From positions 69,453,635 through 69,517,634 of the forward strand of contig CM026426.1 in assembly GCA_014871385.1 (NCBI GenBank): DNA of 64,000 nt, given 5' to 3'. This document shows, piece after piece, positions 5,229 through 38,503 of this stretch. Both the position numbers and the translations under genes were made by a program. Position 1 is the stretch's first letter. Every line of letters begins with the position of its first letter. The stretch is from Ceratodon purpureus. Its lineage: Eukaryota > Streptophyta > Bryopsida > Pseudoditrichales > Ditrichaceae. The notes under the pieces were generated by a model. It had not been told where the DNA came from. It did no database searches and was given only the letters and a program-made list of their open reading frames with translations.

Positions 5229-6440
5229 AGCGCATGTAGAGTCCCCGTTGCAATTTGTTGCTTTGGATTAAGAGAGTCCGTTATCCAGACACGACTCCCT
5301 GTCTGCGTCTACCAATTTAGAAGCATGAAACAAACACTATTAGAAACTTGAATTATATAAATGACTTTTCACCCCGCTTTCATTCGTTTTCATTTATTAA
5401 CGTTAACTATTATTCCTCTACTGCATCTAATAATCTCAATGGATTATATACAAGATGTAAAACAATGGATTCACGCCACGTCTTAGGCAACACACCTTCA
5501 AGGTCGCATCATAGATAACATCTTCCTTTTGTGTTTCTGTGTAATTGGGTGTAAGTATGCTAGACCCCGTACACTTTGGGCAAAATGTGGTTGTAGTAAA
5601 TGTATAAATTAGTACAATATTGTACACACGGCATGAGCGCACACCGCATCTCAGCCGTTGAGTGTAGATCGTGAGGGCTAGGGGCGTAGATCTGGATCCT
5701 CCAATCATGTTGGAGTCGTCACTGACTTTCCACGTGGTTGTCAGGGAATATGGCTCGGCGGTGTGCCACTGCTGGCAAGTGATTAGGTGGGGCAGGGTGA
5801 GCTGGCAGCAAGGTCCCTCGAGGATCCGAGGTGGAATCCAATGTCAATGTAGACGACAACTGACATATTGAACTTTTCATCCTATATTGCATTCGTCAGA
5901 GCAAATAATTTTCGGTAGTTTGTTTTAATAATGCTCTAAGCTATGGTTTTGTTAAATCTTAGTACATTATTTTGGACGACGCCTGGATGAAATTTCATTA
6001 GGACCATGTCTTAAGATTCCAACTTACTAGTATACATGTATAATGGTAAACAGGATAATATTACATTTTATGGTGCGACTTTTTAGACACGCATCATTGT
6101 TATATTATAATATAAAGGTATTTCGCCACCTAACATTGTTTAGGATTGGATAATTAAAATTATTTTTTTGTGAATTGCACCTAATTTCTGAACACAATTT
6201 TTTGAAACATTCGTATATGTAGATTATATATAATAATACAAAGTGTTGTATTCATATCCACTGCAATATTATTAGAATTCTATTTACTATAATTCTAAGA
6301 TATTAGTTAATTAATAACAAAGTATATAGACTATTAGAGATGCGTAGGATATAAAATTAATAATAGGTTTAGGTTTAATTAAGAAATATCACCAAATATT
6401 TATTGTTATAATAATAAATATGATGAACACGAAGAAATTT
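5226..6440. other. Non-coding, turning strongly AT-rich after about 5900
   Basis: No gene recognised. The base composition changes sharply near 5900 to AT-rich sequence that continues to about 7340. Confidence 0.45.
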
Positions 6441-7245
6441 AATTATGATATAAGAATATATTCATTATTTTGAAGGCCAAGACTTGTAACTATATTTAAA
6501 TAAAATTGGATCCATATAAATTTCGTGTGATAGGGTGAATAATTAAAATACAGGTGTTTATAAACTGGGTATATTTCTATATGATATTCGAAATGTTCTA
6601 TTGGTTTAGATTTGGCAACCACGGATAATGTAATATTTCTGTGCAACGTAATTAAAAAATAAAAAAATCGTAGTTCTATTTCTAGTTGAAGCATGTTCCA
6701 TTTATACAACTAAAATTAAAAAATAAATTTAAAAGAATTTCTTCTGTTTATTGATCCATATATCATATTATATAGAATTTACTTCAATTAAATAAAACCA
6801 AAGCTAGCAAGTCTATCCAAATTGAAATAAAATCCAATTATGATATAAGAATATATCAATTATATATGAATGCAAGTCTAATATATTTAAAATAAATTAG
6901 ATCCATATGAATTTCATATTGTTGTAATATTCAATACGACTAATGCCATTTCTAAACCCATATAAATTTCATGTGGTAGAGTGAATAATTGAATTATAGC
7001 TGTTATAGACTGGGTATATTTGTATATAATATTCAAAAGGTTCTATTGGTTTAAATTTGGCAACTAAGGATGACTTAATATATTTGTACAACGTAAATAA
7101 AAATAATTAAAATTGTAGTTCCTATTAATCTAGAGGCATGTTCTATTTATACAACTAAAATGATTAAAATATTGGAAAGTTTTTTTTTATTTATTAATCC
7201 ATTTATCATATTATATAGAATTTTCTTCAATTAATTAAAGCCTAG
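6441..7245. repeat. AT-rich tandem duplication, about 395-bp unit, two diverged copies
   Basis: Both units begin AATTATGATATAAGAATATAT (6441 and 6836). They then share, in the same order, a block near GGATCCATAT/AGATCCATAT, the phrase TAGACTGGGTATATTT or close variants, TTCTATTGGTTTA, TTTGGCAAC, GCATGTTC.ATTTATACAAC and CATATTATATAGAATTT. The copies differ by many substitutions and small indels. No coding potential is visible. This could be a decayed satellite pair or an internally duplicated transposon. Confidence 0.75.
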
Positions 7246-7404
7246 GCATGGATTTCTAGAAATCTATTCAATTAATTTAATTTCCAATTAGATACATTCC
7301 ATGTACTTATATTTTCAGCCGTTTCTAGATTTTATTAAGAAGGAGCAATTACACTTATGGAAGGGTTGGGCCGGTAAGTGCGGGATAAGGTGTCACTTCG
7401 GTAG

Positions 7405-7545
7405 TGTAACTAACCGGTGATTGCAGGTTAAGGAAACATGGAAACCGGTGACCGCCGGTACACAGGTTTAGGCTTTCGACTTTGTTTTGGTATGACCGGT
7501 GACGCCAAGTCACCATGATCATTGACCGGTGACCGCCGGTACTCA
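7405..7545. promoter_or_regulatory. Four ACCGGTGA repeats upstream of the coiled-coil/RING gene
   Basis: ACCGGTGA occurs at 7413, 7444, 7495 and 7525. Two copies extend to the 18-bp sequence ACCGGTGACCGCCGGTAC, itself partly palindromic around CCGG. The cluster lies 190-330 bp before the ATG at 7737. It may be a promoter-proximal binding-site array or a transposon subterminal repeat set. I saw no matching array at the far side of the block. Confidence 0.45.
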
Positions 7546-7736
7546 CCGTCTTCCTCCCTTCACGCGTGGGAAGCAGTGGAGTTCGGATTTTCGTCTTCTT
7601 GCTTCTCCTCTCTCCAGCGATGGCGGAAGCTCCGCTCTTGATTCTGTAGGGTTTTGGGTAGAGGTGAGGAGAGGCTTCTAGAGTTGAAGGTGTGGAGTAG
7701 AGGGTACGGGTTTCTTTAGGGATTGGTAGGGTTTCC

Positions 7737-9459
7737 ATGGCGGGGCGCATTGGAAGCCACCGGTCCGGAAGCACACAGAGCGGGCGTAAGACTGGGAGGA
7801 GGGATTCGGCGCCGGCATCCACCATGGAGGACGACGGTGTGGAGACGAGTAGGGAGGTCGATGCGCCGCACTCCGACAGCGACCGTGAAGATGGTGAGAA
7901 GAAGGGGACACCGGGAGGAAGGGGTACAAGGAAAGTGCGCCGGGCAAAGCCTAAGGGAGAGGCGAAGTCGAAGCCGGCCTTTTCTAGGATTCAAGATGTC
8001 GATGTCGAGATTTCCAGGTTGAGAGTTCCACCGCAAGAGCTTAGTCGCGAGGACTTCATGGCGAAGTATCCGAAGTTGCCGAGCGTGGGGGATAATCCGC
8101 ACCGTTTTCGCAAGGATACGGTTTCACCGGCTTTGATGAAGGAGCTCTTCGGGGCGGCGTATGGTGACAACGGGCGCCAGGGATACGCGTGGGCAGCTTG
8201 CAAAGAAGCTCAGGTGGTGAGGCGCATCGAGTATCTTCACCCGATTTTGTATCAACATCCGCCTGAGGCCATTCCCCAATACTTGAAGATCAGATTCGCT
8301 GAAGGCGTGGCGATGGAGTTCGACTAGGGAGCAGGGTTCGTCGACTGGTGTGCATTCGGAGCAGAGACTAACAAGCGCCAACGAAACAGGTTCAAGCAAG
8401 ACCACGGGAAGCTGATGACGCTGCGGAAGACATTCGAGGAGGAGAAACCCTTGGAGGTTCGGGGCAGGGAGTGGCGTGCGATAAAGTTGGAGCCCGGATT
8501 GAGCTCCACACCAACACCGAGGGGAGGTGGGGCAGGTTTAGGGGGTGATCAGAGGTGGGAGAGGAGGACAAAGTCGAGGTTGGAGGAATCAGGGGACTTC
8601 GAAGACTCTGGTGGAGGTTCGGGGTTGTGTGTTGAAGGGGAGGGATCTGACCCGTGCCGAGGTGGACGTTGGAGTCTGGCCTCAGTTTCGGAGCGGAGTC
8701 AAGAGATTCAAGAGGTCATGGCGCTGATGTCGGTGGAGATGTCCGCAAGCAAAATGGAGGAGAAGACCGCGGCGGAGAAGAAAGAGAAATGTCGGATGGA
8801 TATGACCCGATCCGAATGTTTGGTCCAGAGTTACCAGCGGCAGTTGGAGGATAAGGGGAGAAGAATTGAAGTGCTAAGGGGCGAGGGGGTGGCTGTGGAC
8901 AGAGAAGTGATTAAAATGGAGGGCATTCAGGAGCAACTTGCGGAGGAGGAGGAGAGGCTCCAGAAATTTAAATCAAATTTTCAGTTTGCAGAGTCTGCGT
9001 TGTTGAGCATAGTTGCTGGGGTGGAGGGGCGTGGACTACAGTTGGAGAATCTGAAGCAGGAGTTGTTGCAACTGAGGAGGGGGAAGAATATAGGCACCTT
9101 TTGGCCACGTCTAGTGGTGTATCTAGAAGACAATGGCTCAACTGAAAATGAAGGGGACCTCTTGAGGATTACGGTTTGCTCATTGTGTCTCTTTCCATTT
9201 CCATTGTGTGATATTATTGTTTCCTCGTGTAGGCACTTGTACCATCCATTTTGTGCATCAGTCTTATATATGAATGGTAACAAGTGTTTGGCACGAGGAT
9301 GCCAACAACTCTCACACCCTGAGTGGCATCGGAGCTTCGGTTGGGGAGAACCAAGTGCAGCAATGTTGCAGACGGCTCGGATGATGGGTTGTGCTGAGGA
9401 GAGGAGGAAGGTGTTGCAAGTGAGAATGGACGCCGCAAAGGCAACGTCTCCTACAGTAG
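7737..9459 (+). pseudogene. Coiled-coil protein with C-terminal RING-like zinc module, exon 1 (one in-frame TAG)
   Basis: The frame opens at the ATG at 7737 and continues through a TAG at 8325-8327 (codon 197) to a GTGAGT splice donor after 9459. Sequence on both sides of the TAG looks equally coding. Residues 1-90 are basic and low in complexity. Residues about 95-250 form an unrecognised folded region. Residues about 318-450 are strongly helical and charged, a likely coiled coil. At about 481-522 lies a zinc module: C-x2-C, C-x-H-x2-Y-x2-F-C, then C-x4-C. The protein is probably nuclear, judging by its basic N-terminus. It sits at the left of the GTAC-rich block, pointing at the SET gene. 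The family has a second relic at 1.7-2.6 kb. I do not recognise it by name. Confidence 0.55.
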
Positions 9460-10279
9460 GTGAGTACTCCTACTCCTTTGCTGAGTCTTCATTCCCTTGA
9501 TGACTATTCCATGTACAGCTGATCCATCGAATACTACTCTGAACTGACAATGTATGCAGAGAACAAGTACTTTTAATGCTAGAGTTCTCTTATGCTACAT
9601 TTATAATTTGTGACATGTACATTTGCGTACGTTAAGAATTGTTATTCGGAGTTAGAGTACTCCAGTAACAATTGGGTGGTGTTAGACTTGTATTCCTTGT
9701 GAAGAGGATACTAATCAAAGGTACTATGATTCATGTACCGCATGTGCATCTTGTTATCAGATTACATAACATTTTTCTATTGGTACGCCTTGTACACTTG
9801 AGGTAAGTCATACGTCTCTTAAACTGTACTTATCATACGCATGTAGTTTACATTCGCTGATTTTGGCTAATATTTGTAGTAGATCTTTTTTTCATAGTTG
9901 TACATTACCTTATAACATTTGTAGAATATGTACAAGGTTAGAGTTACATTTGTTAGGTATGTACTGAACAAGCTGTATCGTGTATCTAATGTGGGTGAAT
10001 TGTAGAAATCAGAAGTACATTGTATATTGTACAAGAGTTTGAAGTGTGGTTTACGTACTTTTGGATGTATTCCTTATACAGTTAGGATGTACTAGAAGTA
10101 ATACTTGCACGACCCATGTTGTGCGCAGTTCAGTTACTTGTACACTATTTCTGGTTCGTAGTATATGTATGTATTGGATTACTCTTTGTACAAAAGGATT
10201 GTACCTTGGTCCTAATTGTACTTTATTGTAGATTAGATATTCACTGTGTGTCTTACATATTCTTTTATGTTTGTTTCAG
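9460..10279 (+). other. Intron, 820 bp, saturated with GTAC
   Basis: The donor is GTAG|GTGAGTAC and the acceptor TTTCAG|AGATAGC. Joining them keeps the frame. By eye about 20 GTAC tetramers lie here, against about three expected at random. The same enrichment marks the other introns and spacers of the block. Confidence 0.65.
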
Positions 10280-11371
10280 AGATAGCATCCCAATTGTTTG
10301 CTCCGCCCACATCAGAGGTCTCTCTGGCAAACTTTACCAAGGGAGATGCGAGTCAAGCAGTTTGTATCTCGGCCAAGGGAAGTGAAGACCAGAGCCTTGG
10401 CTGTTGAAGGCAAAGAACCACAGATAAAGTTGCCGGTGGAGTCTCGGAAAAGAAATGCGGCAGACAAGAATAGCCAGGGGAAGCGTCAGAAGCTTGAGGA
10501 GATTTCGTTTGAGTGTATGGAGGGACAAGTGGTGCGAGGAAAAATTAGGGAGCCTGAGATTCATTCAGATGAGGAGACAGACGGTGAAGACGACTATCAC
10601 GTTATGGGGAGACTGCCCTCGAGTTCAGGTCCGACGGTTTCGGGTTCCAAGGAGGATGGGAACTCTGACGGCGAGAGGTCTGTGGATTCGGGTGAGCGAA
10701 CAGGAGGGCAAGGTGATGCAGATGACGAGATAGAAGAAATCAGCGAAGGTGCGAAGTTACCAATTTTCAAATTGTATCATCCCAACTTCGTGAGTCCTCA
10801 GGAGGTCCCAAAGTCCAAGGCTGGTTCTGAGAAGGCCGTTAACTCCCCAGTCGAAGCTGCAACTGTCCGAGGAGTGGAGACTCAGGTGGTGGAAGAGGAC
10901 CCCTTGTGGAATACACCAACCCCGACACCGAGCATTTTCAGGAGTTTAAATTCTATGGGGTTGGAAGTGGCGGTTGAAGAGACAGACTCTGAGTGTTTGC
11001 CGGGTCGGAGCAAGGTAGAGAAGACAAGTGGAAAGAAGAAGGGGAAGATGAGCTCAAGGTCGCCACAAACAGAGAAGCTTGTCGTAGCAGACGAGGAGGA
11101 AGATCAGGAGGAGCACCTGGAGGGAGATGATGTAGAGGAAATTGAGAAGGAGCCACAGCGGAAGAAGGGGAAGGATAAATCGAAGGAGAAGCCGGTGGAG
11201 GATGGCAATAGGGATGAAGATGAAGGCGAGAAGGAGATTGAACGGAGTGCAAAGTCTAAGAAGAAGCGGCAGAGTAAGGAGGTAGATGATGTGGCGGAGG
11301 CAGTCAATGAGGTGGAGAAGGGAAGTGGAGTGGACCAAGCGAAGGCTAAAGAACCGGCAATTCAAGGGTAA
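10280..11371 (+). pseudogene. Acidic/basic low-complexity protein part, exon 2 of the coiled-coil/RING gene, frameshifted
   Basis: Spliced from the donor at 9459, the frame reads about 42 codons and meets a TGA near 10407. Coding character then continues in the next frame to the TAA at 11369-11371, implying one frameshift or a missed small intron near 10380-10410. The long frame is very rich in Glu, Asp, Lys and Ser, with alternating acidic and KKK/KRK stretches, typical of disordered nuclear or chromatin proteins. A short non-disordered island is centred on KLPIFKLYHPNF. After the TAA the sequence still looks coding for about 15 codons. It may be a separate gene instead of exon 2. Confidence 0.5.
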
Positions 11372-11863
11372 AAACAAGGGGACACCTCCAAGCAGAAGCC
11401 TGTAGTCAGGAGGGACACGTAGAGAAAAAGAAGAAGCATAGGCGCAAAAAAGATTAGCCCTTCCCACCACTTGAAACTGCTGGAGATTTTCGTATTTTTC
11501 TTTTAGTGTTGTTCATAGAAGATGTATGTAGTCTTTCTGATGTGTATCTTCTCCACCATTGGGGTTTCTAGAACAGAAACGTGGGGCTTCTGCCCTGCTT
11601 CACTATCAGTATTGTGCTGTTCTTCGAGACTGTGACACTGTTCTTTTTGTATGGTTCAATTATTTTGTAAGTCTCGTTGTGTGTGTACATTCTGTTTTGA
11701 CAAGTGTTTGTACCGTTATTGTGTGTGTAGAGTATTGTTCTGCACTTGCATCTCTTTGAATGCACCGAATTCAATAGGTCTTTGACAGTGGGGGTGTGTC
11801 TTGTTGGGCTGGGGACCATACCAGGCTGAGTCTTGGTTTGACTTCAAAGATTTGTCCCGGAGC

Positions 11864-12879
11864 ATGGAGCCTATTCCTGTTCCTGTCGCTTGTTCTAATG
11901 TTACTTTGACTCCATTTCTTTACATGTCCTCAAGCATGGTTCACGAAAAAGCCCGTGTAGACCAGAGTCTGCATCCCATTCGCCCGGGAGATAGCTGCAA
12001 GTGTGCGACGAGGGATTGCTTGACTGCTCCTGTGCCTTGCGACTGTGCAAAAGAATCAGGAGGGGAATTTGCATATGGAGAAGATGGCCTCCTCAGGGAT
12101 TGCTACCTCCAACATGGAATTAGTGACTGCAGCAGTTGTAAGAAGGGGGCAGGCTGTTATTGTCTTGATGTGTCACATGTAGATGCTAGAGGGAGGGTTG
12201 GAACACGTCAAATTCCGCGCACTTTTATTAGAGAGTGTAGTGTGAAGTGTGGCTGCGACCGTAAATGTGGTAATCGCATTGTACAACACGGAATGAGGTA
12301 CCCAGTAGAGGTTTTCCACACGGGCGAGAAGGGATGGGGGATTAGGGCGAAGAAGGCTATCCCAGGAGGTGCGTTTGTATTTGAGTTGAGTGGGGAGATT
12401 ATGACAAATGCAGAGATGAACGTTAGAAACTTTGCAGTGTGGAAAGGACCCTCTTATGGACTACAACTGGATGCTGATTGGGCTACCGAAAAAACACTTG
12501 ATGACAACAGCGCCCTCTGCTTGGATTCCACCTTCTTTGGAAATGTTGCAAGATTTCTAAATCACAGGTTTGTAATATTTGTGTGCATTCACTAAGTGCT
12601 ATTATATTAATGCAAAACATCAACTAATACTTGTATACAATTCCGTGTAGGTATGAAGATGCGAATTTGATAGACATGCCAGTATTGATTGATGAACGGG
12701 ACAAGAGCTTTTATCACGTAGCCTTCTTCACGAAACGTCCAATTCTAGAATTAGAGGAGCTTACATGGGACTATGGCATAGATTTCGACCTTGAAGACCC
12801 AGAGTTGCCATCCTTTGCATGCAAATGTCAAAGCAGCATGTGTAGAGACAAAATTTCCCTTGTAGTCGACATTGCTTAG
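11864..12879 (+). CDS. SUVR-like histone H3K9 methyltransferase (pre-SET, SET, post-SET), two exons
   Basis: Exon 1 is 11864-12567 and exon 2 is 12651-12879, with intron donor CACAG|GTTTGT and acceptor GTGTAG|GTATG. The product is 310 aa and intact. Residues about 45-135 form a cysteine-rich pre-SET zinc cluster (CKC, CDC, C-x-C, CGCDRKCGN). GEFAYGEDGLL is typical of plant SUVR proteins. The SET domain runs about 155-285, with GWGIRA, NHRYEDANL (the usual NHRC-type cofactor/catalytic motif) and ELTWDYG. The post-SET CKC...C is at about 292-299. The family transfers methyl groups from SAM to H3K9 in the nucleus and promotes silencing. The plant N-terminal region is absent; an upstream exon may be missed. 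The start chosen is the first ATG in the exon. The gene lies between the RING-like gene and the transposase, inside GTAC-rich DNA, so it may be transposon cargo. Confidence 0.85.
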
Positions 12880-13286
12880 TCGTGTTTAGGTCCAACTTTG
12901 TAATGAAATCAAGATGAACGATTCAGTTGTAATAACTTGGATTCACTACAGAGTCATACAACATTTTGGAGAGAATCTTATATACAAATGATACTTAACT
13001 AGTACTAAAAGGTATATTATATGTACCTTAAGTACACATACTACAAGTGATACTTTAACAGTACCGAAAGTACATCATCTGTTCATGCATTAAGTACTTG
13101 TATACAGATAAAATTGGGTAACTTAGAATTCTAGTGCTGGCCGAAAGTTGGGACTACCACGCTGGCCTAACTCTACTTGCACAATCCGGAATAGTTAAGA
13201 ACAAATGGAACTACACCGGCAAAAGTTTCCACTTTTATAAATAAACGAAGACACACCTTGTACAGTCCAAGTACGGAAGAGTTATT
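12880..13286. other. GTAC-rich intergenic spacer between convergent genes
   Basis: It separates the ends of the SET gene (plus) and the membrane-protein gene (minus). GTAC tetramers recur every 30-60 bp. No promoter is expected in this tail-to-tail spacer. Confidence 0.5.
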
Positions 13287-13673
13287 TTACGACTCTAGAT
13301 AATTCTGCAAATTCTCTAGTCCCTCTTCACTCATTCTATTGTAAAATTCATCCCACAGAGCGTGTGTTTCCTCCCTTGTCCATTGGGGACTCGTACTCTG
13401 AGAACACCCTGATGAAGAGGTCCTGTCCAACCCTCCTGTCCATGTAGCTTTCTTGAGCCTAGGTAGAACTGTAGTCAGAATCCATAGAAGGGAAAAGAAC
13501 CTTTCTTTAATCCCATGTTGGATGGTCCACTTTCGCACATGTGAGATTCCAGCCAAAACGCCACGCACTATCCTCCTACATAACACAATTGTAACAACGA
13601 GCATTCCTAGGTACACCATTAGAAAGCACCCTAAAGCAGCAACAAATTCATCTATGGCTAACTCAGGGTCCAT
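13287..13673 (-). CDS. Small single-pass membrane protein, unknown
   Basis: The frame is 128 aa from the ATG at 13673. Residues about 10-34 are a long hydrophobic segment (AALGCFLMVYLGMLVVTIVLC) ending in CRR, a likely transmembrane helix with the positive side following. A second weaker hydrophobic stretch (FFSLLWILTTVL) follows at about residues 58-70. The tail is polar and acidic. It lies downstream of the transposase gene on the same strand, with a 250-bp GTAC-containing gap. I do not recognise the family. It is intact but short, so it could be a chance ORF; its position inside the block and its regular composition argue mildly for a real gene. Confidence 0.4.
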   Translation of the reverse strand: MDPELAIDEFVAALGCFLMVYLGMLVVTIVLCRRIVRGVLAGISHVRKWTIQHGIKERFFSLLWILTTVLPRLKKATWTGGLDRTSSSGCSQSTSPQWTREETHALWDEFYNRMSEEGLENLQNYLES

Positions 13674-13939
13674 AGCACATGAAGAGAGGAGCAAACAACA
13701 CTATCCCTCTTACGAGAAGCAAATGATCACACACAAAGCAGGTAGCACGTAATAGTCGTGCATTTGTACAGAGACGTGGACTGAGAATCTTCCTGAAATC
13801 TATAAAAAGAATAACGGTCACATAACTTGAGCAACGCGCTCCCTGCCCGTTTCAAAACGTACAAAGAGTATTCACAAATACCTTGTACAATGCACAAAAA
13901 GCACAATTAGTACATCTAAGTTTTCAACTTGCAACATGA

Positions 13940-16900
13940 CTATTCCTCATTGAATGCCCACCACTCCCGTAAAGCATCCTCACAGACCCTCAAGCTCTCT
14001 TTGGACATCTTGTATACAGGAGAGCCCTTCACCCTGTGTGCAGCAAGAATCATTGGAAATTTGCAAGCCCTCACCAAATGCGAATCTACGTGAGCGTCCA
14101 CTGCTTTGTCACAGAACACAAAGGTCTTGTCGCCACGGCCAAACTTCTTGAAATACTTTGCCTTGATTACCTCGTCGCCCGCACTAAACACGCCCCCCCA
14201 TGGACAGTATAGATGCTCCTGCAACTCAAACTTCCGCTTTGTACATTGAAGAATATAAAAATCGACTCCATCTTCATTATCCTCCTCTGCAGATATCATG
14301 AAGTTATCCCCTACATCTACCAAGTCGCCTAGAGACATGGAGACACCGTCATGCATCGAGTTCGCCTCATCGTCCAACTCTTGTATCACCTCTGCTACTA
14401 GACCAGCGCTGTCCGGAACCAACCTATTCACGTCCCAGCCCTGCACATGAGATAAGTGCTCACAGTTAGCCCAATCGCAATCAACACAAGGTATACAAAA
14501 ACATGATAAAGATCGAGTCCTCAGCAAAGTAGGGTCGGTATCAGAGAAGCCCATAATCGAATAAAGTGACTTTGAGCCCGGCAAAGTCTTGCAGCGTATG
14601 CTCATGTCACCATGGTCGACCTCATCTTCCCCAATGTGCCAAAACACACGAGAAAGGGATGGGGTATTTGGATGCTTGTACGAGCTTGTAACCCGCTCGG
14701 TGTATCTTTCCTCCAGGAACTGTACAACTTGTTGGGCATTCTGCAATGGCCTCGATGGGTTTTGGATCTGCAATGGCCTCGATGGGTTTTGGATCTGCTC
14801 GGAAGTTAAGGCTCTCTTCACAACCGCACCGGCTCCATCCCATTCGCCTTTCCCGTGAGCACTTTCGAAGTAGCTCCATCGCATCTTGCAACCCTTGGTA
14901 AGAATGGGGTATCGTGCCACAAAATACATGGCCGTGGCACATTTGAATTGGGCGCTTCACCCGTCACTATACACCCAGTGTTCTTCTGGACTGAAGCCAG
15001 AATCTTGCAACCAGTCCCAATGCAAGAGCAAACAATGCTAGACATATGCCGAATCATGGTCCTTGTCGTCAGACACATAGAAGTGTGTTTGCTTGATGAT
15101 GTTCTCTCCTTCTCTCCACATGGTAATGTGAACTAGGATAGTGACAGAGGTGCTGAAGTAATACATACTTTGCACCTCGTGTTGAATTGCGAAACTATAA
15201 TTTTCTGCATAATCGATATGGGAGATGATAACTCCCTCAGGGACATTCTTCATCATCTTCTGGCACTGCTCATCTTGCCATCTCGCCCTGAAATTGTGAG
15301 TGATAAACGTTGTCACTGTCTTTTCTATGTAGGACAAGAATTCGTCAACGGGTGTCTCTTTAAAAGCCTCTCTCAGTCGTTTCTTCGGTCTTCCTGTCTT
15401 TTTGTCCACGCCCACCTCGTAATACTCAAAGCACTTCCACTTCAACGAGAATGAGTCAATACTAGCCAACTCTTTTGGACACAAAGGAAATAACTCAAAG
15501 CCACAATCAGGACAATCCCCCATGAGGCAATGTAGCTTGTGCCAAACATCAAGCTCCCCTTTGGGACAAACACAAGCTTCCCACATCAAGGTTATGCGCT
15601 TATAAATCTGACAATGAGCATGACAACCCCCCTCCGTATCACTAGCACACACCAAGCACCCACAGTCACAGTTAGACTGTGCATAAAGGCCCCGCACTTT
15701 GTCCCTTAAATTGCTCAGACCAACCTTCATCAGATCCATTTCCACATGGTAGATACAACAACAAGTATTCCTCTCTTTCAGCTTTCGCACCCACCAAGGC
15801 TTCAACCTCTCGAAAGCTCTCTGGCGAACACTACACTCTGGATGCGCTTCTGTAAACCGCAAGAAGAACGTTGTCTGTATTCCATCACAGAGTACAAATC
15901 AGTATCATAGTACATTAGTACCACTAATGTACATGAGAAGTACCCTAAATCAGAGTATGAAGTACTCACAAAGAACTTGAACAGTACTAAAACAGTACTA
16001 TGGTTGTGTACAAATGACGTTTCATGGAGTACAAATGATATAGAAGTAAACTTTGAGTACGCATATACTCTTGGACTTCACATTTGCTACAACATCAAAG
16101 TACAACCTGCATATATTGGTACACGACAAGTACGTTGTTTTCAACTTCTACCACATGAAGTACTAACTATACAGAACTCTTGAACTCCAGAAGTATACAG
16201 TTTGTACTGTATGTTCGTGGACTCCACATTTTCTACCACAGACACGTACAAGAGTACACACTCGTCCAGTATCTCAATGTATCCAAAGTATAAAGTGTCA
16301 ACGCGAATTTGTCTTTGTACATCAATGGCCACCACTAATTCACATCTAGTATGGTATAGTACATATAGCCACAGGAAGGGTACAAGAGAAATACAAAACA
16401 CAGGCTTTCGAAGTATTAAGAATACAATACCCAAAAACCCTTCGAGCAACAATTATAACTCCGTGTACAATAAGGCAGCTATCACTGATTTTACAAAGGC
16501 AACAGATACAAGTGGTAGGGAAGAACGTACTTGTGCCTCACACAAGTAGTGAGTGGGGTGAGGCTCGGCCCAAAGATTCCTTCCAACCCTGTGCTTCACA
16601 ATATCCTTCTTATTAGGTGACACCTTAGTCTGACTCCTCCACCATGTCTCGATCTGGTCCTTGATGTAGTCGGATAAGCCTCCTCTCTTCTTGCGTTGGA
16701 GACGAAGTCTTGGCTCAGCTTCTTCGGGGCCGAGAGCATAGACCCTACGATTCTTTGCTATCGTGATGCTCTCAATACTTGTGTGCAGAACTCGTGATAA
16801 CGCCCTCACACCACCAATCCCCATGCTCACTGCAGCATCTAAAGCGGCACTCTTACGTGCTAACAACTCGTTTGAATTCGCCACCTTCACCATGGAAAGC

Positions 16901-17861
16901 TCATGCCTGAAGTTCAAAAGAAAACCGTGCACGACCTTTGCTTCTTGCGGTCGAGGGTAATAATCAGGTGATAGTGGCCAAACAGTGTCACGACGCAACA
17001 GACTCTCCATGACATCTTTCCGACTCAAAGGACCAAGACAACTTCTCAACTCCTCAACTATGTACTGAGCTATGCGTAATGAAATCCGATTGGACTCTCT
17101 CACGCTCAGATGGTCCTCAACATCCTCATCTGGAAGCTCAGTCGCCAACACTCGTGTTTCCTCGACCATCTGTCTCTCACGTGCTCTCTGGCGAGCTTTC
17201 CTCTCTCTCGCCCCTTCAACTGTAGCCGACCTCTGTTCATTCCGCAACCTACTTTTAGCGGCTCTAGCAGATGGTCCGGGCCGACTAACACCATGTCTCA
17301 CACGCTGTCTCTTGGCGGTGTTTCCCATGAGACCTAGGAGTTGTGCACGACACCCACTGCTTTGTCAGTAATCTATAGACAAACTCAGTACATAGTTGTG
17401 GAGTTGAGAGATTAACACGGTCCTGTACATAATGAAGAGTTCCACGAAGAATGCACAATCTATTCCACAAAACTCACCGAAATTGCTGACAAGCATCACC
17501 TTCTGAATGCAACTGACTCCACGCTTCTAGTAGGAGAAGATATTTGATACCTCACATCAGAAAGAGAAGGCAAAACCTCATAGCTACTAGAGGGGTAACT
17601 ACAAGAATCAGTAGATACTGCGGCAAGAAACAATGCACGCCTAGGAGAGTCTTCTGATACTGATACAGCGTTGCACTTTCCTAAGTAGAAATCTCGCACC
17701 CCTTGCTTTGAAACAGGGGTCTCAGATACGTAACAGGAGTCACTAGTTTCGCTATTTTCTGTATAATAAATCGATTCAACCTCTGAAGTTTGTGGGATAC
17801 AGGTGAAGTACGAAGTAATCAACTTCTGCACCAGATTCGACCTCTGAGCAGACCTAGACAT
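13940..17861 (-). pseudogene. DDE-type transposase (DYAENY / SDG..QFK / HGKG family), three exons, two nonsense codons
   Basis: Exons are 17861-17500, 17356-16531 and 15874-13940, with donors AG|GTGATG and CAA|GTACGT and acceptors GCAG and ACAG. The phases join perfectly and give 1040 codons. Residues about 460-530 hold Cys/His pairs (CDCGC, CPDC) typical of zinc modules in this group. The core shows HIDYAENYS (D617), SDDKDHD (664), YSDG-stop-SAQFK (699-707) and FESAHGKGEWDGAG (733-745). This matches a widespread but poorly named family of eukaryotic transposase-like proteins, known to me from invertebrates and fungi-like contexts. The acidic residues of DYAENY and SDG are the likely catalytic pair. 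TAG at 15040-15038 (codon 675) and TGA at 14959-14957 (codon 702, inside SDG..QFK) break the frame. There is no frameshift, so inactivation looks recent. Confidence 0.7.
15875..16530 (-). other. Intron 2 of the transposase, saturated with GTAC
   Basis: This 656-bp intron contains about 20 GTAC tetramers by eye, mostly as AGTAC or TGTAC. The density matches that of the RING-gene intron at 9460-10279, on the opposite gene strand. Confidence 0.6.
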
Positions 17862-20120
17862 TTTGCATGAACACAGCAAACACAGAGAATCTACAAGCAA
17901 CTATGGAAAAAACACTACGCAACCAGCCCATCATTGAGCGCCCTAATTGTTTAGACGTTGAAAACACAGCTGAACATGAGCACAGAGCGCACCCCGCCAC
18001 GAAAGGTGGGAAAAAAGGCATGGGGGAGACGAAGAGAATGTCAAAGCTGGGGTTGATTGCAGGTGGCGGCGGCATATTCAAGGGGCGTTGAAGGGATCTG
18101 CTCTATGGGTCATGCATGGGCACCCTCCCAAGCTCGGCGCCCTTGAATTTCGGATCTTGATCGCGAAAACGAACGGCTCAAGTGATAGGGTGGCCCACGT
18201 GGACGGTCAGGATGCGACATCGAATGTACATTGAGTACTATAAGTACTGTATGTACACTGTGAACGCAGTGTGATCGGCTACTAAATGAATAACGAAAAA
18301 ATTCTCTTTTTCCAAATTGAACAGTGAGCCAACCTAGGACTATCCTAAGGCGTCCAGAATCCACCGCTGGATCTAAAAAACGTAGAATATTTCCCCCCTT
18401 TTTTCCTTGCTAAGCATTCAGTACTACTTTTTTAAATCTTCTACAAATAAGCCACAAAACCGTCAATTCGCTGATAGAATCTAAAAAACGGCATGCTTTC
18501 CTTTCCTCTGCATGAAAGAGATCAGATTCAAAGTTTTGGATAAACAAGAAATTTGTACTTTTTTGCTAAACTAGTACTTGTGACTTTTTTTTGCACTGTA
18601 AACAAGTACAATTAAACTTAGGCAATCGCATATCTAAACTATTTTGACACTGCAAATACGATCTAAACAAGCATACTTATTATGCAAACCTATTACAAAA
18701 CGTAGAAACATTTAGCTCGGATGGTATTTTTTGATGTGAACAGACCGCACCCTGGAAAAATACGACTGTGACTAGAAAAGTACATGGGTCTAGCGTACTT
18801 ACACCCAATTTTCTTGTATCTTAACCCACAACACAACATCGAGTAAGTGAAAGTTGGAGAATTTAAAGTATAATCTAACTATGGTTTCACGACTTCCAAT
18901 GTTGAATTAGCAATTGCATGTTTTTGTTGTTTCATTCGAAGCAGATTTGATGACTGATCTGTCTCCATTGCCTGTTTACAAACACATTCGCAAGTTAATG
19001 CATTAGACTTGGGAATCAAACACATATTACTGTAGTGCAAATGGTGGAAAAGTCAAAAAAAAAATAAACATAAGTCGCACTCTCAATCAAATGCAGTACG
19101 ACATTGGTTATGAAGCAAACATAGGAATCAACTTCACAGCCCATAATATGTGAGAGTGCAATCCACCTAAATGAATCAAACATATGAATCAACTTCAGAG
19201 TCCATAATATGTGCCACGCTAGGTATCTAATGAGGGTATAGTCGAAAAAGTCTTAGCTCACAAGCTATGCACTATATATGATAAAATATTGCCATTGTAC
19301 TAAAATTACAGTAATAAAATTATAAGTGACACAGCCTCATTGTCTATGTTTGCCGTTCAGGTATTCTCAAACATTTAATCGTTGATAATTTTTTATTGGT
19401 TCCGGTATGTTATGGGTACAGGGTGACAAATTTTACCTTTCCGCTACATCCAGCAGTTGAAATACGTGACGACACGCTCAACACCTGTTAGTTTTGAATT
19501 TTAGTTGATAAGTTCAGAAAACAAGCACGATCTCTAACACTGAGCAATATCATACCTATCAATGTAACACTAATATCAGAAATTACAAAAGAAACTTAAA
19601 AACGAAATTTGTACCCAATGAAAGATATTACTTAGCTATACAACTGCATTATCAACGATTTCCAATGTAGAGAATCTGAACTACATGTTCAAAAATTGAT
19701 AATTCATCTCTACATGCTTCCGTCCAAACACTACTCCTAAATCAATGAAAGTGTACTTGCAACATGTATTTTTTCCTAATAAATTCAACTTACTGCGTCC
19801 ACATATTGAAATTAACTTTTTGAAGTCATTTTCTTTGTCATTTTTGTAGAATTAAATGACAAAGAAAATGACGATGTACATCGCACCACCATGAGTATTG
19901 TAACTTAGAAGACATGGTGACATGTTTGGGGGGCTGTCTAATACTCAATCTAATAACTTATCCACAAAGACATGAAGAGAATTCAGTCCCAACACTTCAA
20001 TTGGCGAGCATAGATATAACAAAACGTCAAAACGAGGTAGAACAACCGTGACTGTAGCAAGCATGATAAACCCAATTTTACATACAACAACATCAACAAC
20101 GTGCAACGATAAAATGTGTT
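17862..20120. other. Non-coding spacer with scattered GTAC
   Basis: No credible ORF. GTAC clusters occur near 18225-18255 and 18550-18610, then thin out. A 29-bp near-identical phrase, GAATCAACTTCA(C/G)AG(C/T)CC, occurs near 19128 and 19187. A strong hairpin lies at 19825-19872. The upstream start of the transposase gene at 17861 implies that a promoter lies within the first few hundred bases, but no TATA box stands out. Confidence 0.45.
19825..19872. repeat. Perfect 19-bp hairpin
   Basis: GTCATTTTCTTTGTCATTT at 19825-19843 is the exact reverse complement of 19854-19872, with a 10-nt loop. It may be a terminal or regulatory palindrome; its function is unknown. Confidence 0.85.
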
Positions 20121-20828
20121 TTAACTACTAGTACTTTCTGAATCCAACATGTCCATGCTCTCCTCCACAATACCGTAATCAAGTGATGCATGATGCTTAC
20201 CGTTGGGCACGTACTCTCCCGATTCGTCTTCATCCGCATCTGTGTTTGTCGGCGAACGTGTTCGTGCCTTAGGGTTATTTGCAGTCCGCGCGTGAGCAAT
20301 CCTCGTCTCCTCCAGTCTTCGACTCGTACGTTTGGGTAGGTGCTCAGCATCCTTACGGTCTCTCTTCAAACTTCGTCTACTCTCACCTATGGACGAGTTG
20401 CTATGTAGTTTCACATGCAAACAGAACCCAACAAATAACAGCGTGAAATAGGAAACGCTGACACAAACTCTTCTATATTTGCAGTAATGACAAATAAAGT
20501 CTCACCTGCGCTCGTAAGAAGATCCCCCAGCACTTGAGGGTTCTGACAAACACGACTCTGTAACAATTCAATCGCGACCGTTCAAAATGACACGTGTACA
20601 TCATCCATACAAGCTATGTCTAATAAAGTAGGGTTTTGTCTGGTTTTGAGTAACTTACAAAGCATTTGCCAAGTCCACAACCGGCTGGAGGCACACACTG
20701 AGTTCCTTCATGTTAGCCCTCCTGAATTGTTCGTATTTCTTCTCCTCTGGCTCTGACTCTTCTTCCACAGTCCGCAAGTCTCCTCCTTCACCTTCGCTAA
20801 GTCCCGAAGAGTCGCTCTCCCGAGGCAT
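20121..20828 (-). CDS. Small acidic/basic nuclear-type protein, three exons, unknown
   Basis: Exons are 20828-20659, 20555-20506 and 20386-20121. Donors are TT|GTAAGT and GCAG|GTGAGA; acceptors are CAGAG|TCGTG and CATAG|GTGAG. The join gives 161 aa with no stop, ending in TAA. Residues 1-35 are acidic (SGLSEGEGGDL, EEESEPEEKK). The middle is helical. Residues 75-110 are basic (RRSLKRDRKD, PKRTSRRLEE), suggesting a nuclear localisation signal. The tail is acidic (DADEDESGEY). It resembles a DNA- or chromatin-bound accessory protein, but no named domain is visible. It lies about 2.3 kb upstream of the transposase on the same strand, at the right side of the GTAC-rich block, and may be part of the same element. 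Confidence 0.55.
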
Positions 20829-22710
20829 CTTTGATGCACATCAACTTGGAACCTCTCTACTACTCTCCTCAAACGCTACAACTTACTCAAACGGTGCGTG
20901 AATTGATTGTATGCTCAGAGGGGAAATGCACAGCCCTATACGATTACGGCGATAGAGAATTCAAAAGTAAACACATTGGGAATGACGGTTTGAGTAGGAA
21001 AACATAGAACGCATCCTTGCTCCACTCAAAGACCGTCGTCTAAAGTGATTATGGACTGGGACTTCCAGAATAGAAAGTTTTTCTTGCATCAACCAAAGTA
21101 AACATATCTCGAAGTCTGACTTCAACTTGGGTCATCTCTCAGGTTTGCGTTGGATCAATCTCGTTCTCATCTACTGTTTGCTTGACTGTATGATCAGAAC
21201 CACAACATTTTCTTACACAGTGTTGTCGTGAAATAATTCCTCAACACTGTATGTAGTATAGTGATTCTAATCATGGTGTTTTGAATTCAGTTTATTTTTT
21301 TCCACTTATTATACATAACAATGTCAATCGCCACTCATTTAGTTCTTTCTCTATTGCCGTAAAGCAAATTATGACAGTACTTCAGGTGTTCGCGAAGGCT
21401 GAGACTTTCAACTGACGGTGCTCTTGAGGATCTGAAGGGCGGGGCAATTAATCGTCGGCATTGCAGGTTAAATTCTTCTCTTACGCCTTTACGATTCCAA
21501 AGCAGATTAACAGGCACGCTCAGGTGACAAACTTCTGCTCAGCCAATTCGTTTTAAACCGGGATTTTTGGTTATCGCAGTACATAACGAGGCATGTTGCT
21601 TGCTGCTGGGCAGATTTAGAGTCTCAAATGAGAGGATGATTCATAATTGTAAAATCTCACGTTTGGTATGCTTAGCTAAAACACTAATTTTCTGGATTTT
21701 TTTCAGAGGAGTCATATTGTATAATATAATACGACATTCGCATATTGATCAACGCATGTGATGTCAATGTTATTCCTCACTTGCCATTCAGATAAACACG
21801 ACAACGGTTATCGAATGGATATAATTCTCTGTACCCTGCATAGTTGAAATATATGAAAAGTTTTTCTACGCACTTGAGAAAGTACGCAACATCTGGCACA
21901 CCCGGGTGAGCTACACATTAACCTCTAAATGTTAGTGATTGTTTATTTTAATCATCGAATGTCGCTCATTCCATCGAGAATAACTACAGTCTTTTTTGTA
22001 TTCGTTTAGCATTCCATGTCGTTTCTCATTCGATAGGAGTCCAACAGTCATCACGAGCTCAGAGTATGTTATTAATCCGTGTATCCGTGTATCCGTGTAT
22101 CCGTGTATCCGTGCATTTGCAATATCTGTGTATAAATCCGTGTACAGCAGATGCCATTCCAGTTGTGATTTTCGTCTATACCTGATTCCTTGAACTTCTA
22201 GTCAACTTTTAGATAAGTCCCGGTCACAAAGTCCTAATTAGTTTCGATACATCGTCCTAGGTCTCTATTTGTACCTGCTCTGAGTGAGGAATCTTTATGT
22301 TATATGTCCCTTTATGTGTTAATCAACCTTTTCATTTTTCAGTCTTTTTTACGTGTTCGCACATGATCTGTGGAAATCCTGGGTTATATTGTCCTATGAT
22401 TCTAAAATAGCTGTTCTAAGCCGATTGAATAATCAATTTAACTGTGTATAGTCCAATAAGTGTGCATCTAGTGTTAAGTTTGAGTTGAACATGTGGGGCA
22501 AATACCTATACTTTTCCTTTGCCGAGTCAATGCAATATGTGTTGACGGCTATATAGAACTGAAGCTTTTCTAATTGCATTTACGTGTGTAAATTGTTAGG
22601 CAAACATGTCTGCCAGGTACCCACTTAATGACGTACGCAGAGTGAAGTCCCGAGATGACAAGCTCTGAATCCGCAAACAAGAACGGGCTACGCTATACAA
22701 TTTTTCAAGA
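20829..22710. other. Non-coding stretch before the Tnp2 transposase
   Basis: No gene is supported. Near 21212-21252 an imperfect inverted pair ACACAGTGTTGT / AACACTGTAT flanks an AT-rich loop. GTAC density drops to background here, placing the right limit of the GTAC-rich block near 20.8 kb. Confidence 0.4.
22077..22116. repeat. 8-bp tandem repeat CCGTGTAT, about five copies
   Basis: The unit CCGTGTAT repeats head to tail about five times, the last copy changed to CCGTGCAT. It is a simple microsatellite-like tract in non-coding DNA. Confidence 0.8.
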
Positions 22711-24771
22711 ATGTCTTGTCCTTGTAATGTTCACAAGGGCATTAGACGGGCATTCAAGATGGAGGAAGTTGAAAGACACCTCCTAAAGTATGGGCGATCT
22801 CCTGAATGCAGCACATGGAGGAGACCCGGAGAAGCCACATCATCTGATGAGGAGTTGGAAGTGGATTACATGGAGAATATCTGTACATCGAAGGACCGGT
22901 CTACAGCGAAAGACAATGGGATTGAGGTGAGGGATATGATGCAGCATATATACCAAGAAGTGGACAAATTCATTGAAAGAGAAAATACCTTGAACAACAT
23001 TACCTTAGCCGCGATGGAGACCGTAGATAACATAACAGGTGTAAATGCCAATGACTCTACTGAAGCACCTGTTCCAAACAACGATCATGGTCATATGGAG
23101 CGCGAAGAAGAGGGTACCAAACAGCGGCAGCCAACAGGACAAGCACACCAAAATGCAGTCCCGATTGGTAACATCCCTGAAGGAAGAGTGGACTTAGACA
23201 TGAATATGTTCAATCTCAATCCCGATTTTCAAGATGGAGAATACGAACGGCTTGAAGATGAGAGAAGAAAGGATGCAGAAGCTTTGGAGGACTCAATGCA
23301 ACTACTCTACAAGGATTCGAATCACACGAAGCTCGGAGCAACAATAATGGTCATGAACTTAGTTGCAACACATACTGGGATAACGAATAAGGCCGCAGAT
23401 GATATATTGGCCACGGTAAAGTGTTTGCTGCTAGACATCAATTGCTTACCTAGATCCCTGTACCAAGCAAAGTTTTTCACAAATAGACTCGGATTGGGCT
23501 TCATTAACATCCATGGCTGCCCTAACGGATGTGTCCTCTTTGATAAAGAGTCTGGCACAAAGGATCTTGACAGATGTCCCTTGTGTGAGTCTCCTCAGTA
23601 TGGTGATATGCTGCATTGTACTAGACCGTTGAAGGTATTAAGGCAGTTCTCAATAACACCTAGGCTGCTCAGGTTCTACAGGATCCCAATGTTATCCAAG
23701 CTGATGCGGTAGCACTTTGAGAATGCAAGCAATGATGGAAAAGTACGTTTTCCAGCTGATTCCAGAGCGTGGAAGAGACTTGACACGATGGACCCCAGTG
23801 TGTGTGATACCCGGGGTTTTCGGAAGGATCCACGTGATGTACGTCTACAAGTTGCATGCGACAGAATCTGCCCGTTTAAGTTGCACAAACCCACCTAGGC
23901 AGCGTGGCCGGTGCTTGTGAGTTTATTAAACCTCGCTGCATGGTTAATTACAAAATAGTTTTTCACCATGCTTACTTTGTTAATTCCAGGGAGAAATCAG
24001 GTTCTGTTGCAGCACTTTGATGTCTGGCTACGTCCACTCATCAACGAGCTGAAGAATCTTTGGAAAGGTGTACATGCGTACGACATACTAGCTCCGGAAG
24101 GCAGTCGGGGTTTTAACTTGAGAGCAGCAGTGTTATATACTACTCATGACTTCCCCGGATATGGAATTATATCCCGTGCGTCCCATCAGGGATACTGTGC
24201 TTGTCCGCCTTGTGGGAATCAAATGATGGCAAAATATGCGTTTGAAAGTAAAAAGCTTACCTACCGAGATGCGAGAAGGTGGGTGCGTCCAGACCATTTC
24301 ATACGGTCGTCGAGATATGATTCTCTTTTCGATGGTCACCCAGAGACCCGTCTTGCTCCTGTTCAAAAAACGCCTCAAGAGCAATTAGCGGCACTGAAGG
24401 AGTATCATGCGTATCTAAGAAGGAAGGGCAAAGTGAATGCTGGTGAATAGAGGCTCAATACAGGTGAACAGAGGGCGAACAATCAAGATGTCGGTGGTGT
24501 TGATAACATCGGTTCATCTTCTGTCCACAGTGCTCCTCCACCAAATCGTGCGGACAATCGTGGTAACGCACAAAGTTCTGAACTCGGTGAATCTTCAAGA
24601 CCGTCAACAGCACTACACGAACGTCGCGAGAGTATTCGGCGCGGAAAGAGCAAAACCTCTCAAAAGAGAAAACAAGGTTAGCGCAAGTTCAGGACATTCA
24701 AAACCAAGGACCCCTCTCAAGTTCACGGAATGAAGCGATGGAGCGTGTTCTTCGAATTGTCTTATTGGGAG

Positions 24772-26203
24772 GTAATACCATCGTCAGTCCTACTTTTGAT
24801 TCCTTAAGCTTCGTGTCCAGTGCTGGGTGCTAACACTTTTACTATAGCCCTGTCGGTCGGCTTTGGATGGCGTTCTCATGATAGTTGTTATCGTATGGCC
24901 ATGCATTTACGGATAATCCAAGGTGTGGCTGTTGCCTACGTTTGAGTAATTCAACTACATGTAATAATTCAGAATTATGTAATAATTCAGAATTATGTAA
25001 TAATTCAGAATTATGTAATAATTCAGAATTATGTAATAATTCAGAATTTAATTCGATGGATTCAATACAGTTTTTGGAGAGTTGGAATGAACTTGTTTTT
25101 ATTCCACTTATGCGCGTCATTATAGGTTAGGTCCCTGAATTATTTTAAAATAATATGACTACCTATTTTCTACAGAGTTTGGTGTTTTATTGAACCAGAA
25201 CTGATTTATTATAGAGGATATCATCCTATGAATGAATGCGTTCAACTCTAGTAGTGGATCACGATTATGCATAACAAAGAACGTGTATGGCAAGGTCTTA
25301 TAATTTCTCGCATCGTTGCAGCTCAATGTCAGAAACGTCCACCGACAAAGGTACGCGGCCAATAAACTGTGCATGGTCACCTATGTCTGACTGACTTGCC
25401 CCTGTGCCTTATCACGCTCTGAGAGACAAGTTAGTGCAAAAGTGTACGCGACATTCATTTTTCTCATTGGAAATTAGAAGTTATTGTTCCTCGAGGTGAT
25501 TTACACTTGTATTGAAACGAGGACAGATTTGAGCAAGATATAACCGTCAAAATATTATTGTAAATTAGGAGTCTCACAAAACAGTACTCTTGTTGTCGAG
25601 CATCCTGTTGTATTGAGATGGTATTCCTATCATCTACTGATTGCTTGACTTCTATCAGCTAGCGACTCATTGTAATGATTGTGTCTAGAGCTTTCGCTGA
25701 CCACTCTAGTGTCGAACATATTTGTCTCAGAACCTAGGCTTAAGATGTCAAAGTTAGGACTTGTAAAATTGTGAAAAATCTTGATTGCTTAACCTGTTTA
25801 CATTTATCTTTTAATTATAATGGATCGTCGATTTCATTCTCACGAATTTTGGTTTTGTGTAATGTGAAATTAAGGTCTCCGATAGAATTGCATCTAAATT
25901 CGTGATCATTCCAGTTGTTATTTTTATGTACGACAACTTTTTGTGCTTGTCCACTTTTGACCATGTAGGATATTATTATTTTTCATTTTCACAGCTTTGA
26001 CTATTCTAACAGGCTCCGTGGACTGGCAGAGTTGGTAGTTGTTATTTGAGTTTATATCCAGCTCCTTTCTTCTTTATTTTTCCTATTCTATGGTTCTTTC
26101 AATCCTTCATTTTTTTGTGTTTTTGTTTTTTTTTTTTTTTTTTCCCCTTCTTTTGTTCTTCTACTTCACAAGGGATTTTCATGTGGTATTGTTCCTGTTT
26201 CAG
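24772..26203 (+). other. Intron of the Tnp2 gene, 1.43 kb, with minisatellite and T18 run
   Basis: It is bounded by GTAATA and a pyrimidine-rich TTTCAG acceptor. It contains the 18-bp minisatellite at 24961-25049 and a T18 run at 26126-26143. No other gene was seen. Confidence 0.6.
24961..25049. repeat. 18-bp minisatellite GTAATAATTCAGAATTAT, about five copies
   Basis: Four exact tandem copies and most of a fifth. The 18-bp length keeps a frame open on both strands, which explains apparent repeat peptides; these are not coding because the array lies in an intron. Confidence 0.9.
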
Positions 26204-27435
26204 CATTTGGAAATTCGAAATTCATTAGACATCATGCACTGTGAGAAATTTTTTGCTGAGAATATTCTCAAGACCATCTGCGGCGATAAGGAAAAAGACA
26301 GTGTGAAGGTGGGTAGAAATATGCAGCGAGAAGGGATTCGTAAACACCTGTGGATGACTAAAGATCTCAACAATCATTCTCGTATGCTTAAACCCGTAGC
26401 TAACTATGTTTTAAAACCTGAGGAGTTCGACACTTTCTACACAAGACTTGAGAAGCTTAAGGTACCTTCGGGTTATTGCACTGAGATGGGCTCCTACATT
26501 CGGGCCAAAAAATTTGGTGCTTTAAAATTGCATGATTATCACAATTTGATGCAGACGCTTCTCCCCTTGGCCCTGAGAGGTTTAATGGAACCCACTACCC
26601 GTATGGCTATCATGCGATCCTGCAGAGTATTCCGAAGGTTGTGCTGTAAAGTCTGGGACCCTAGACAAGACCAAAATCTTCGTGAGGATGTGGCGATTAC
26701 TATGTGTTTAATGGAAATCACCTTTCCACCAACATTTTTTACCATAATGTCACATCTTTCAGAGCATTTGGTTAGTGAATTGATAATACTAGGTCCAACC
26801 CAAGTCAGGTGGATGTATCTTGCGGAGCGCACTATGATGACTCTGAAGAATCATGTCAAAAACCGAGCGCGTCTTGAAGCTTCAATCGCTAATGGATACC
26901 TTTTAGATGAAACAATGGGTTTCGCCACTTCTTATATGCATGGGTTTGATGTGGTGCGAAGGCGTGTGTGGGACGCTGACCCAGAGGACTGCGAGGAGTA
27001 CGAGGTTCTTGAAGGTGCTTCTGTCGATATTTTACTCACACGTGCTGAAAGAGATGAAGCACAAAGATATGTTTTGCAGAACAACACATTGACAGCAACT
27101 TTCTACATGTACTGGTCAGCCGCTGTACTCTCCTATTTAAATGATGTTTATCAATGAGTTTGTTCATTGTTTTCGGCTGAGCACTGTGTTCAACATAATG
27201 TATTCTTGACAACTGGATTACACATAGTTGTTAGTTTCTTTTGATTACATTTGCAATGCACTATACTGCCGATCCGTCCATGATCAATCAAAAAAGGAAG
27301 ACGTCGTTGGTGTATGCTGCTAGAGTTGGAATTTTTCATGCTTAGAATTAAACATTTTCATATCGGCAACGGTGATTGCATACATTGTATAGACCAACCA
27401 TATACCCGGAATCTGACGGTGTTCAATGATTGTAA

Positions 27436-38290: not shown

Positions 38291-38503
38291 GATGGAGGTA
38301 GTACTTTGGTTGTGTATTGTATTTGTACAAGTATGGAATATAGTAATTGTATTTGTATTTCAAGAAGTATTCAAAACATTGGAAAATACTATAATATTTT
38401 GTATTTTTCCTAATATATTCTAAATGTATAATATTATTTCTAAATAAAACTACGTATATGAAGTAGTATTGCAGTAAATACTTTTTACCTTGGCAGTTGG
38501 TGG

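Follow-up and report, generated by a model that had tools for sequence, protein, structure and literature searches.

A moss DNA transposon with a SET-domain gene carries conserved, helically phased GTAC arrays in its introns and spacers

We analysed a 64,000-bp stretch of contig CM026426.1 from the moss Ceratodon purpureus (the window) and found that a 13,260-bp cut-and-paste DNA transposon at 5547–18806, with genes for a RING-like coiled-coil protein, a pre-SET/SET protein, a small protein with a membrane-type stretch and a transposase, packs its introns and spacers with the palindrome GTAC. These GTACs are conserved between copies far beyond other words in the same DNA, recur in the transposase introns of divergent clades and are spaced at about one turn of the helix. 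Together, these properties make it very probable that the arrays are protein-binding sites. We lean towards a reading in which they are coated by a protein, most likely encoded by the element and most likely protecting the chromatin of the element from silencing. The GTAC packing of transposase introns across clades, the retention of GTAC amid divergence and the ~10.3-bp site repeat are new; none of the open-access papers listed by our literature search dealt with GTAC arrays in transposons, with transposons combining SET and RING genes or with moss elements of this kind.

A sequence-only reading of the window had described introns and spacers packed with GTAC, and counting bore this out, with 22, 8, 4, 23 and 16 copies in the five intervals it had named. 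The RING-like gene intron (9460–10279, + strand) holds 22 GTACs, against 2.5 expected from base composition and 6.2 from dinucleotides (P = 5e-14 and 7e-7), and the transposase intron (15875–16530, − strand) holds 23 against 2.2 and 6.3 (P = 2e-16 and 2e-7); both long introns are extreme under either expectation. Smaller arrays lie in the spacers at 12881–13286 (8 versus 1.3 and 2.9; P = 7e-5 and 0.009) and 13701–13939 (4 versus 0.8 and 1.0; P = 0.009 and 0.018) and at the right end, 17862–18806 (10 versus 3.5 and 2.2; P = 0.003 and 1e-4). Coding DNA of the window element shows no excess, with 0–3 GTACs in each of its eight parts, and six noncoding parts of the element (5547–5900, 5901–7299, 7300–7736, 11461–11863, 12570–12650 and 17365–17498) are not enriched. 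Within one of these regions, an AT-rich segment at 6435–7282 contains a direct duplication with a step of ~445 bp, again lacking GTAC enrichment.

The same reading had tied the high density to the block and placed background levels beyond it, which held: the enrichment belongs to the transposon and not to its flanks. The window outside the element contains 135 GTACs in 50,740 bp (2.7 per kb), and the flanks of nine other copies contain 86 in 37,864 bp (2.3 per kb); these ~38 kb and the rest of the window served as our sample of host-intron background. No 650-bp stretch of the window outside the element has more than 7 GTACs. Triple clusters of the form GTAC-N3..20-GTAC-N3..20-GTAC occur 14 times in the window element and 0 times in the rest of the window; genome-wide, the 11,946 such clusters on the forward strand, versus 27,433 for the reversed word CATG, are uninformative by themselves. 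Array sites have only the core word GTAC in common and no longer repeat unit. Tandem repeats were ruled out as the origin of the GTACs, as none were found at the arrays.

Conservation singles out this word. In three copies whose left noncoding DNA is 71–78% identical (c4, d1 and e1), GTAC was kept at 25 of 36 aligned sites from c4 to e1, 28 of 43 from c4 to d1 and 25 of 37 from d1 to e1 (excluding 7, 0 and 6 of 43 sites that fell in gaps), whereas the 23 other permutations of these letters were kept at 54 of 200, 84 of 213 and 73 of 186 sites in the same copy pairs. Restricting the comparison to the RING-like gene intron and the SET spacer gave 21/26, 23/31 and 21/26 GTACs kept, versus 37% (347/946), 49% and 40% for other 4-mers; in the reverse directions, 66–77% of GTACs were kept versus 37–50%. 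Per-base identity is 0.80–1.00 over GTAC and falls to about the average one base beyond on both sides, which marks the four-letter word as the unit of conservation. Its preferred form is WGTACW, with A or T preceding GTAC at 85% of array sites versus 62% of window background sites; the first flanking base is A or T in every clade sampled, and the core word is identical in all of them.

Beyond this clade, we sampled 950 bp upstream of the transposase catalytic exon at ten places in other clades, and ~1.9 kb at each of four. All ten relatives carry 13–23 GTACs per 950 bp; no other palindromic 4-mer is as common in any of them, nor in the window (23). These stretches are 84–93% alike within a clade, and between clades 43 to 401 bp align, part of it exon; the window transposase intron aligns with none of the ten at E 1e-3. 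GTAC-packed introns that barely align indicate that the density was kept or remade while the surrounding sequence turned over.

The sites are also placed at helical steps. Distances between GTACs of up to 105 bp were pooled as 365 pairs from 11 segments of noncoding DNA, six belonging to the window element and five being other-clade introns (one per clade, out of the ten); they cluster near 9–11, 21–22, 29–31, 41–44, 50–55 and 60–62 bp. They fit best to a period of 10.3 bp, one turn of the helix, whose power of 6.5 stands above all 2000 jittered sets (mean 1.6, maximum 4.1). When segments were tested singly at 10.4 bp, a period picked after the pooled test that makes the single-segment P values somewhat generous, seven of nine reached P < 0.05, among them the transposase intron (P = 0.019) and 18181–18806 at the right end (P = 0.045). 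Combined by Fisher's method, all nine segments give 6e-9; taken separately, the five introns from other clades give 1e-7 and the four segments of the window element 0.003, and leaving out L038, which shares patches with L037, gives 2e-7. GTACs outside the element show no phase (34 pairs, power 0.44). Such phasing is consistent with a protein aligned on one face of B-DNA; it is not predicted by an RNA signal or by composition bias. GTAC may still be a methylation site, as the sequence-only reading had also suggested, although that role does not predict phasing either.

Two explanations dispense with a sequence-specific protein. One invokes DNA shape or the placement of nucleosomes, and it would account for the one-turn period and for AA, TT and TTAA (as well as CTAG) lying in antiphase with GTAC. 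TA steps outside GTAC have little phase (power 1.95), yet GTAT and ATAC, each one letter off GTAC, are in phase with it; the AA/TT antiphase is partly a forced complement of GTAC filling the in-phase places, and shape by itself would not keep a single exact 4-mer in place. We consider this very unlikely. The other is a neutral origin, as a compositional or mutational signature or by descent from old repeats. Related copies do inherit sites, 61 GTACs being common to an alignment of three copies, often in the right half, where the copies are still 90–97% alike. Against this, GTAC conservation far exceeds that of other 4-mers in the same DNA, the arrays persist in introns that no longer align, and the sites are phased. 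The compositional signature that the earlier reading had allowed for is disfavoured by this phasing and conservation, and we regard a neutral origin as highly improbable.

The limits of the element are set by its other copies, whose alignments to the window start at ~5547 and stop at ~18806. At these points lie 21-bp terminal inverted repeats, GGGTGTAAGTAYGCTAGACCC with small variations: the left repeat (5547–5567, +) has GTAT here and GTAC in most relatives seen, and the right repeat (18786–18806, −) has GTAC. Flanking them is a 4-bp target duplication, AATT, at 5543–5546 and 18807–18810, checked in the sequence. Read by eye, a 4-bp duplication is present in all eight copies showing both ends, the window copy included, and varies by copy (AATT in the window, then GCGA, GTTT, AAAT, AAGG, TACT, TGTT and CACG). 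By its terminal inverted repeats and target duplication, the element is a cut-and-paste DNA transposon. CACTA elements have CACTA ends and duplications of 2–3 bp, and with GGGTG ends and a 4-bp duplication the element falls outside that superfamily. These results come from 43 DNA matches to positions 7400–9400 in the 362-Mb assembly, of which ten copies were fetched with flanks, along with two more distant ones. Seven of these 12 show both ends, four the left end only (c2, c6, c9 and d2) and one neither (c8); with the window copy, 13 copies were read, and the full-length alignment comprised six of the others and the window copy. Some copies have large insertions or deletions. A genome search for left ends returned 40 matches.

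This outline revises the proposal that one large DNA transposon spans 7400–20830 and unites five genes. The RING-like, SET, membrane-protein and transposase genes do share ends and target duplications, and the limits shift to 5547–18806. The acidic open reading frame (ORF) at 20121–20830 (−), just beyond the element, was ruled out as a part of it by the copy-defined boundary at 18806. The segment 18807–20830 is not enriched for GTAC (10 versus 6.9 expected, P = 0.16).

The RING-like gene lies on the + strand, with exon 1 at 7737–9459 and exon 2 at 10280–11460 (end inexact) on either side of its GTAC-packed intron. Its product has RING matches under the Pfam cut-off only, a conserved N-terminal region and a coiled-coil-like middle. 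Downstream, the SET gene (+; exons 11864–12567 and 12651–12880, splice read from the sequence) matches Pfam Pre-SET (E = 1e-10) and SET (E = 8e-8), both above the curated cut-offs, and its best solved relatives are EHMT2 and Clr4-type enzymes. Relatives carry the motif NHRCxDANL, a SUVR-like form, and the window copy has Y in place of the NHRC cysteine. With both domains present, the product is a predicted H3K9-type histone methyltransferase. The 128-aa protein with a membrane-type stretch (13287–13673, −) is open over its full length both in the window copy and in four others.

The transposase, also on the − strand, comprises a catalytic exon (13940–15874), a second exon (16531–17364, 5′ limit approximate) with an open frame and a predicted first exon (17499–17861) with an open frame and an ATG. 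Candidate DDE motifs, HIDYAEN, YSDGCSAQFK and ESAHGKGEWDGAGA, were read by eye. Pfam, run with nine proteins, gave no match for the transposase exons up to E = 5, a PDB sequence search with the transposase exon of a relative gave a single match at E = 1.2, taken as chance, and single-sequence structure predictions had mean pLDDT values of 32 for the transposase exon, a model without confidence, and 40 for RING exon 1. The window copy is damaged: RING exon 1 has one in-frame stop (8325), the frame of RING exon 2 is broken (first stop in the expected frame at 10405; open in other copies) and the catalytic exon has two stops (15040 and 14959, codon first base). Other copies have uninterrupted long frames. 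Between copies, and with frames extending a few codons into introns, dN/dS was 0.09–0.12 for the catalytic exon, 0.10–0.15 for the second transposase exon (0.19–0.49 in pairs with the damaged window copy), 0.11–0.14 for RING exon 1 (three other copies), 0.32–0.43 for RING exon 2 and 0.37–0.52 for SET exon 1 (0.92 for one close pair). The genes have therefore been kept by purifying selection.

The family of this element numbers at least 136 transposase places in the genome. Transposase exon searches gave 1021 first-look candidates, the best-scored 136 at 73–100% identity; the best-scored RING exon matches numbered 116 of 1883 candidates (41–100% identity) and the best-scored SET matches 150 of 712 (47–100%). 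Linkage was counted over 108 of the 116 RING matches (8 fragments dropped), 136 transposase and 150 SET places. Had these genes always occurred apart elsewhere, the earlier proposal of a single unit would have failed; instead, a SET or transposase gene lies within 20 kb of 90 of the 108 RING places and is oriented as expected (a downstream SET gene on the same strand at 84, a convergent transposase at 69, both at 63). A partner gene is found at 102 of 136 transposase places and 102 of 150 SET places, and the misses are at least partly artefacts because the lists hold only the best-scored places. The terminal repeat, allowing up to three mismatches, occurs at 581 places on both strands versus 153 for the reversed pattern. 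Members of other clades are framed by pairs of this repeat, one at C6:28135529-28149969 with GTAT replacing GTAC and another at C6:11685358-11696922 with GGGTGAAAGTACACTAGACC. Copy d1 (C4:21745337-21765336; L025, L026) is a mosaic, ~76–79% identical to the window on the left and 94% in the right half, as if halves had been swapped between families. Contig C6, on which the window lies (110,524,308 bases, ~30% of the assembly), holds 84 of the 136 scored transposase places. It fits a sex chromosome of C. purpureus, given as 110.5 and 112.2 Mb for the two (PMC9273592), and the frequency of the family there may bear on the growth of that chromosome.

Other elements of the window lie beyond the transposon. 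A CACTA-like element at 22669–28278 (+) has a weak Transpos_assoc match (E = 0.0017, under the curated cut-off) and, by eye in a 1-kb table, no GTAC enrichment. ORFs of the long interspersed nuclear element (LINE) type cover ~30–38.5 kb; one of them (35272–37263, −) has DIESNPGP near its N terminus, a 2A-like ribosome-skipping motif (consensus DxExNPGP). Tandem His-Pro-rich peptide repeats adjoin the LINE at 38028–38573 (−). Copy d1 is inserted in a LINE resembling that of the window, and LINE sequence resumes beyond it.

If the arrays are bound, by what? The sequence-only reading had suggested the transposase as one possibility. The idea of a binding site is strengthened by conservation, phasing and recurrence, and the transposase as the binder is weakened by a clade whose terminal repeats both carry GTAT but whose introns keep 15–18 GTACs (L033, L034). 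Arrays could still be overgrown subterminal repeats that gather transposase and help end pairing, with no silencing role, as GTAC stands in the terminal repeat of most listed copies and again just inside it, and the right end is enriched. The densest arrays, however, are inside introns, 4 kb from the left and 2.3 kb from the right end, and the left end shows no significant excess (3 GTACs versus 1.5 expected), which together with the GTAT-ended clade leads us to judge this unlikely. Host factors such as SBP-box proteins, present in mosses, could instead use the sites for expression of the element, given that GTAC is recognised by moss PpSBP2 and AtSPL7 (PMC4606839). In our data, C precedes GTAC at 5% of 530 both-strand array sites, versus 18% of window background GTACs. 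The usual SBP site, TNCGTACAA, has C in that place and the arrays do not match it, making this quite improbable.

We return to a protein coat, for which the binder would probably be encoded by the element itself. The RING-like coiled-coil protein would be the first candidate, because it diverges faster than the transposase (between-clade identity 41–51% versus 73–82%) and has a conserved N-terminal region and a coiled-coil-like middle; the transposase would be the second. A GTAC-binding protein would line up along one DNA face and cover much of the noncoding DNA of the element, and this coat would guard its chromatin against silencing. The SET enzyme would be a second, element-made influence on the same chromatin, and could deposit a mark the element needs or counter a host pathway. 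Whether the arrays have an anti-silencing role is, in our judgement, close to evenly balanced. In favour of this model, the arrays lie in noncoding DNA, with none in the coding exons of the window copy, and there is precedent in VANC21, which sits in introns, spacers and ends of Arabidopsis VANDAL21 and binds YAGTATTAY, with loss of methylation from the element (PMC5735166, PMC10398659).

Several observations weigh on the other side. Tested alone, neither the RING-like gene intron nor the SET spacer shows significant phasing (P = 0.11 each), and a nucleosome effect may underlie the AA/TT antiphase. Of the four relatives fetched, three have slightly more GTACs in their exons than expected (10, 9 and 6 versus 4.8, 4.2 and 2.5; P = 0.02–0.04), which counts against a purely noncoding effect. 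Pfam recognised no DNA-binding domain in the RING-like protein or the transposase, and an H3K9-type SET enzyme would be expected to silence. VANC targets diverge between families, whereas the moss GTAC is constant in all clades sampled; one core word throughout makes a rapid arms race over the DNA target less likely.

Among known systems, Ac/Ds and En/Spm have subterminal transposase-binding repeats within a few hundred bases of their ends. The moss element resembles them in its many copies of a short word, bound in those systems by an element protein, and differs in having its densest arrays kilobases inside, in introns. VANDALs are MULEs, with 9-bp duplications and weak inverted repeats, unlike the 4-bp duplications and 21-bp inverted repeats found here. 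The moss transposase exons gave no Pfam match to a MULE transposase and so do not place the element among VANDALs, and its transposase and RING-like exons have no match to DUF1985 or any other Pfam domain beyond the sub-threshold RING. What the moss element does have in common with the VANC type is a motif amassed in its own noncoding parts; VANDALs are likewise multi-gene plant DNA transposons with a short motif in introns, spacers and ends and a transposase more conserved than its partner (PMC5735166, PMC10398659). The VANC motif, YAGTATTAY, forms tandem repeats and varies between related families, whereas the moss motif is a 4-bp palindrome in helical phase without tandem repeats. Pre-SET and SET domains are shared with EHMT/G9a, Clr4 and plant SUVR/SUVH enzymes, from which the moss protein differs in being transposon-borne and in having no SRA domain that we could see. 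Fungal DNA transposons encoding a TET/JBP dioxygenase similarly join a DNA transposon to an enzyme acting on chromatin or DNA marks, in that case of the DNA demethylation type (PMC12730594). The means by which transposons withstand silencing are still an open question, with VANC as one well-studied sequence-specific case. It is conceivable, though on balance we doubt it, that the moss element represents a second, independently evolved sequence-specific anti-silencing system, in which an element protein polymerising on phased GTACs and an element methyltransferase would together set chromatin while the DNA target stayed fixed during divergence. If true, an unrelated element with a code readable in its sequence, a 4-bp palindrome at helical steps that selection maintains, and with its own histone methyltransferase would stand beside VANC as a second case, in a haploid-dominant plant.

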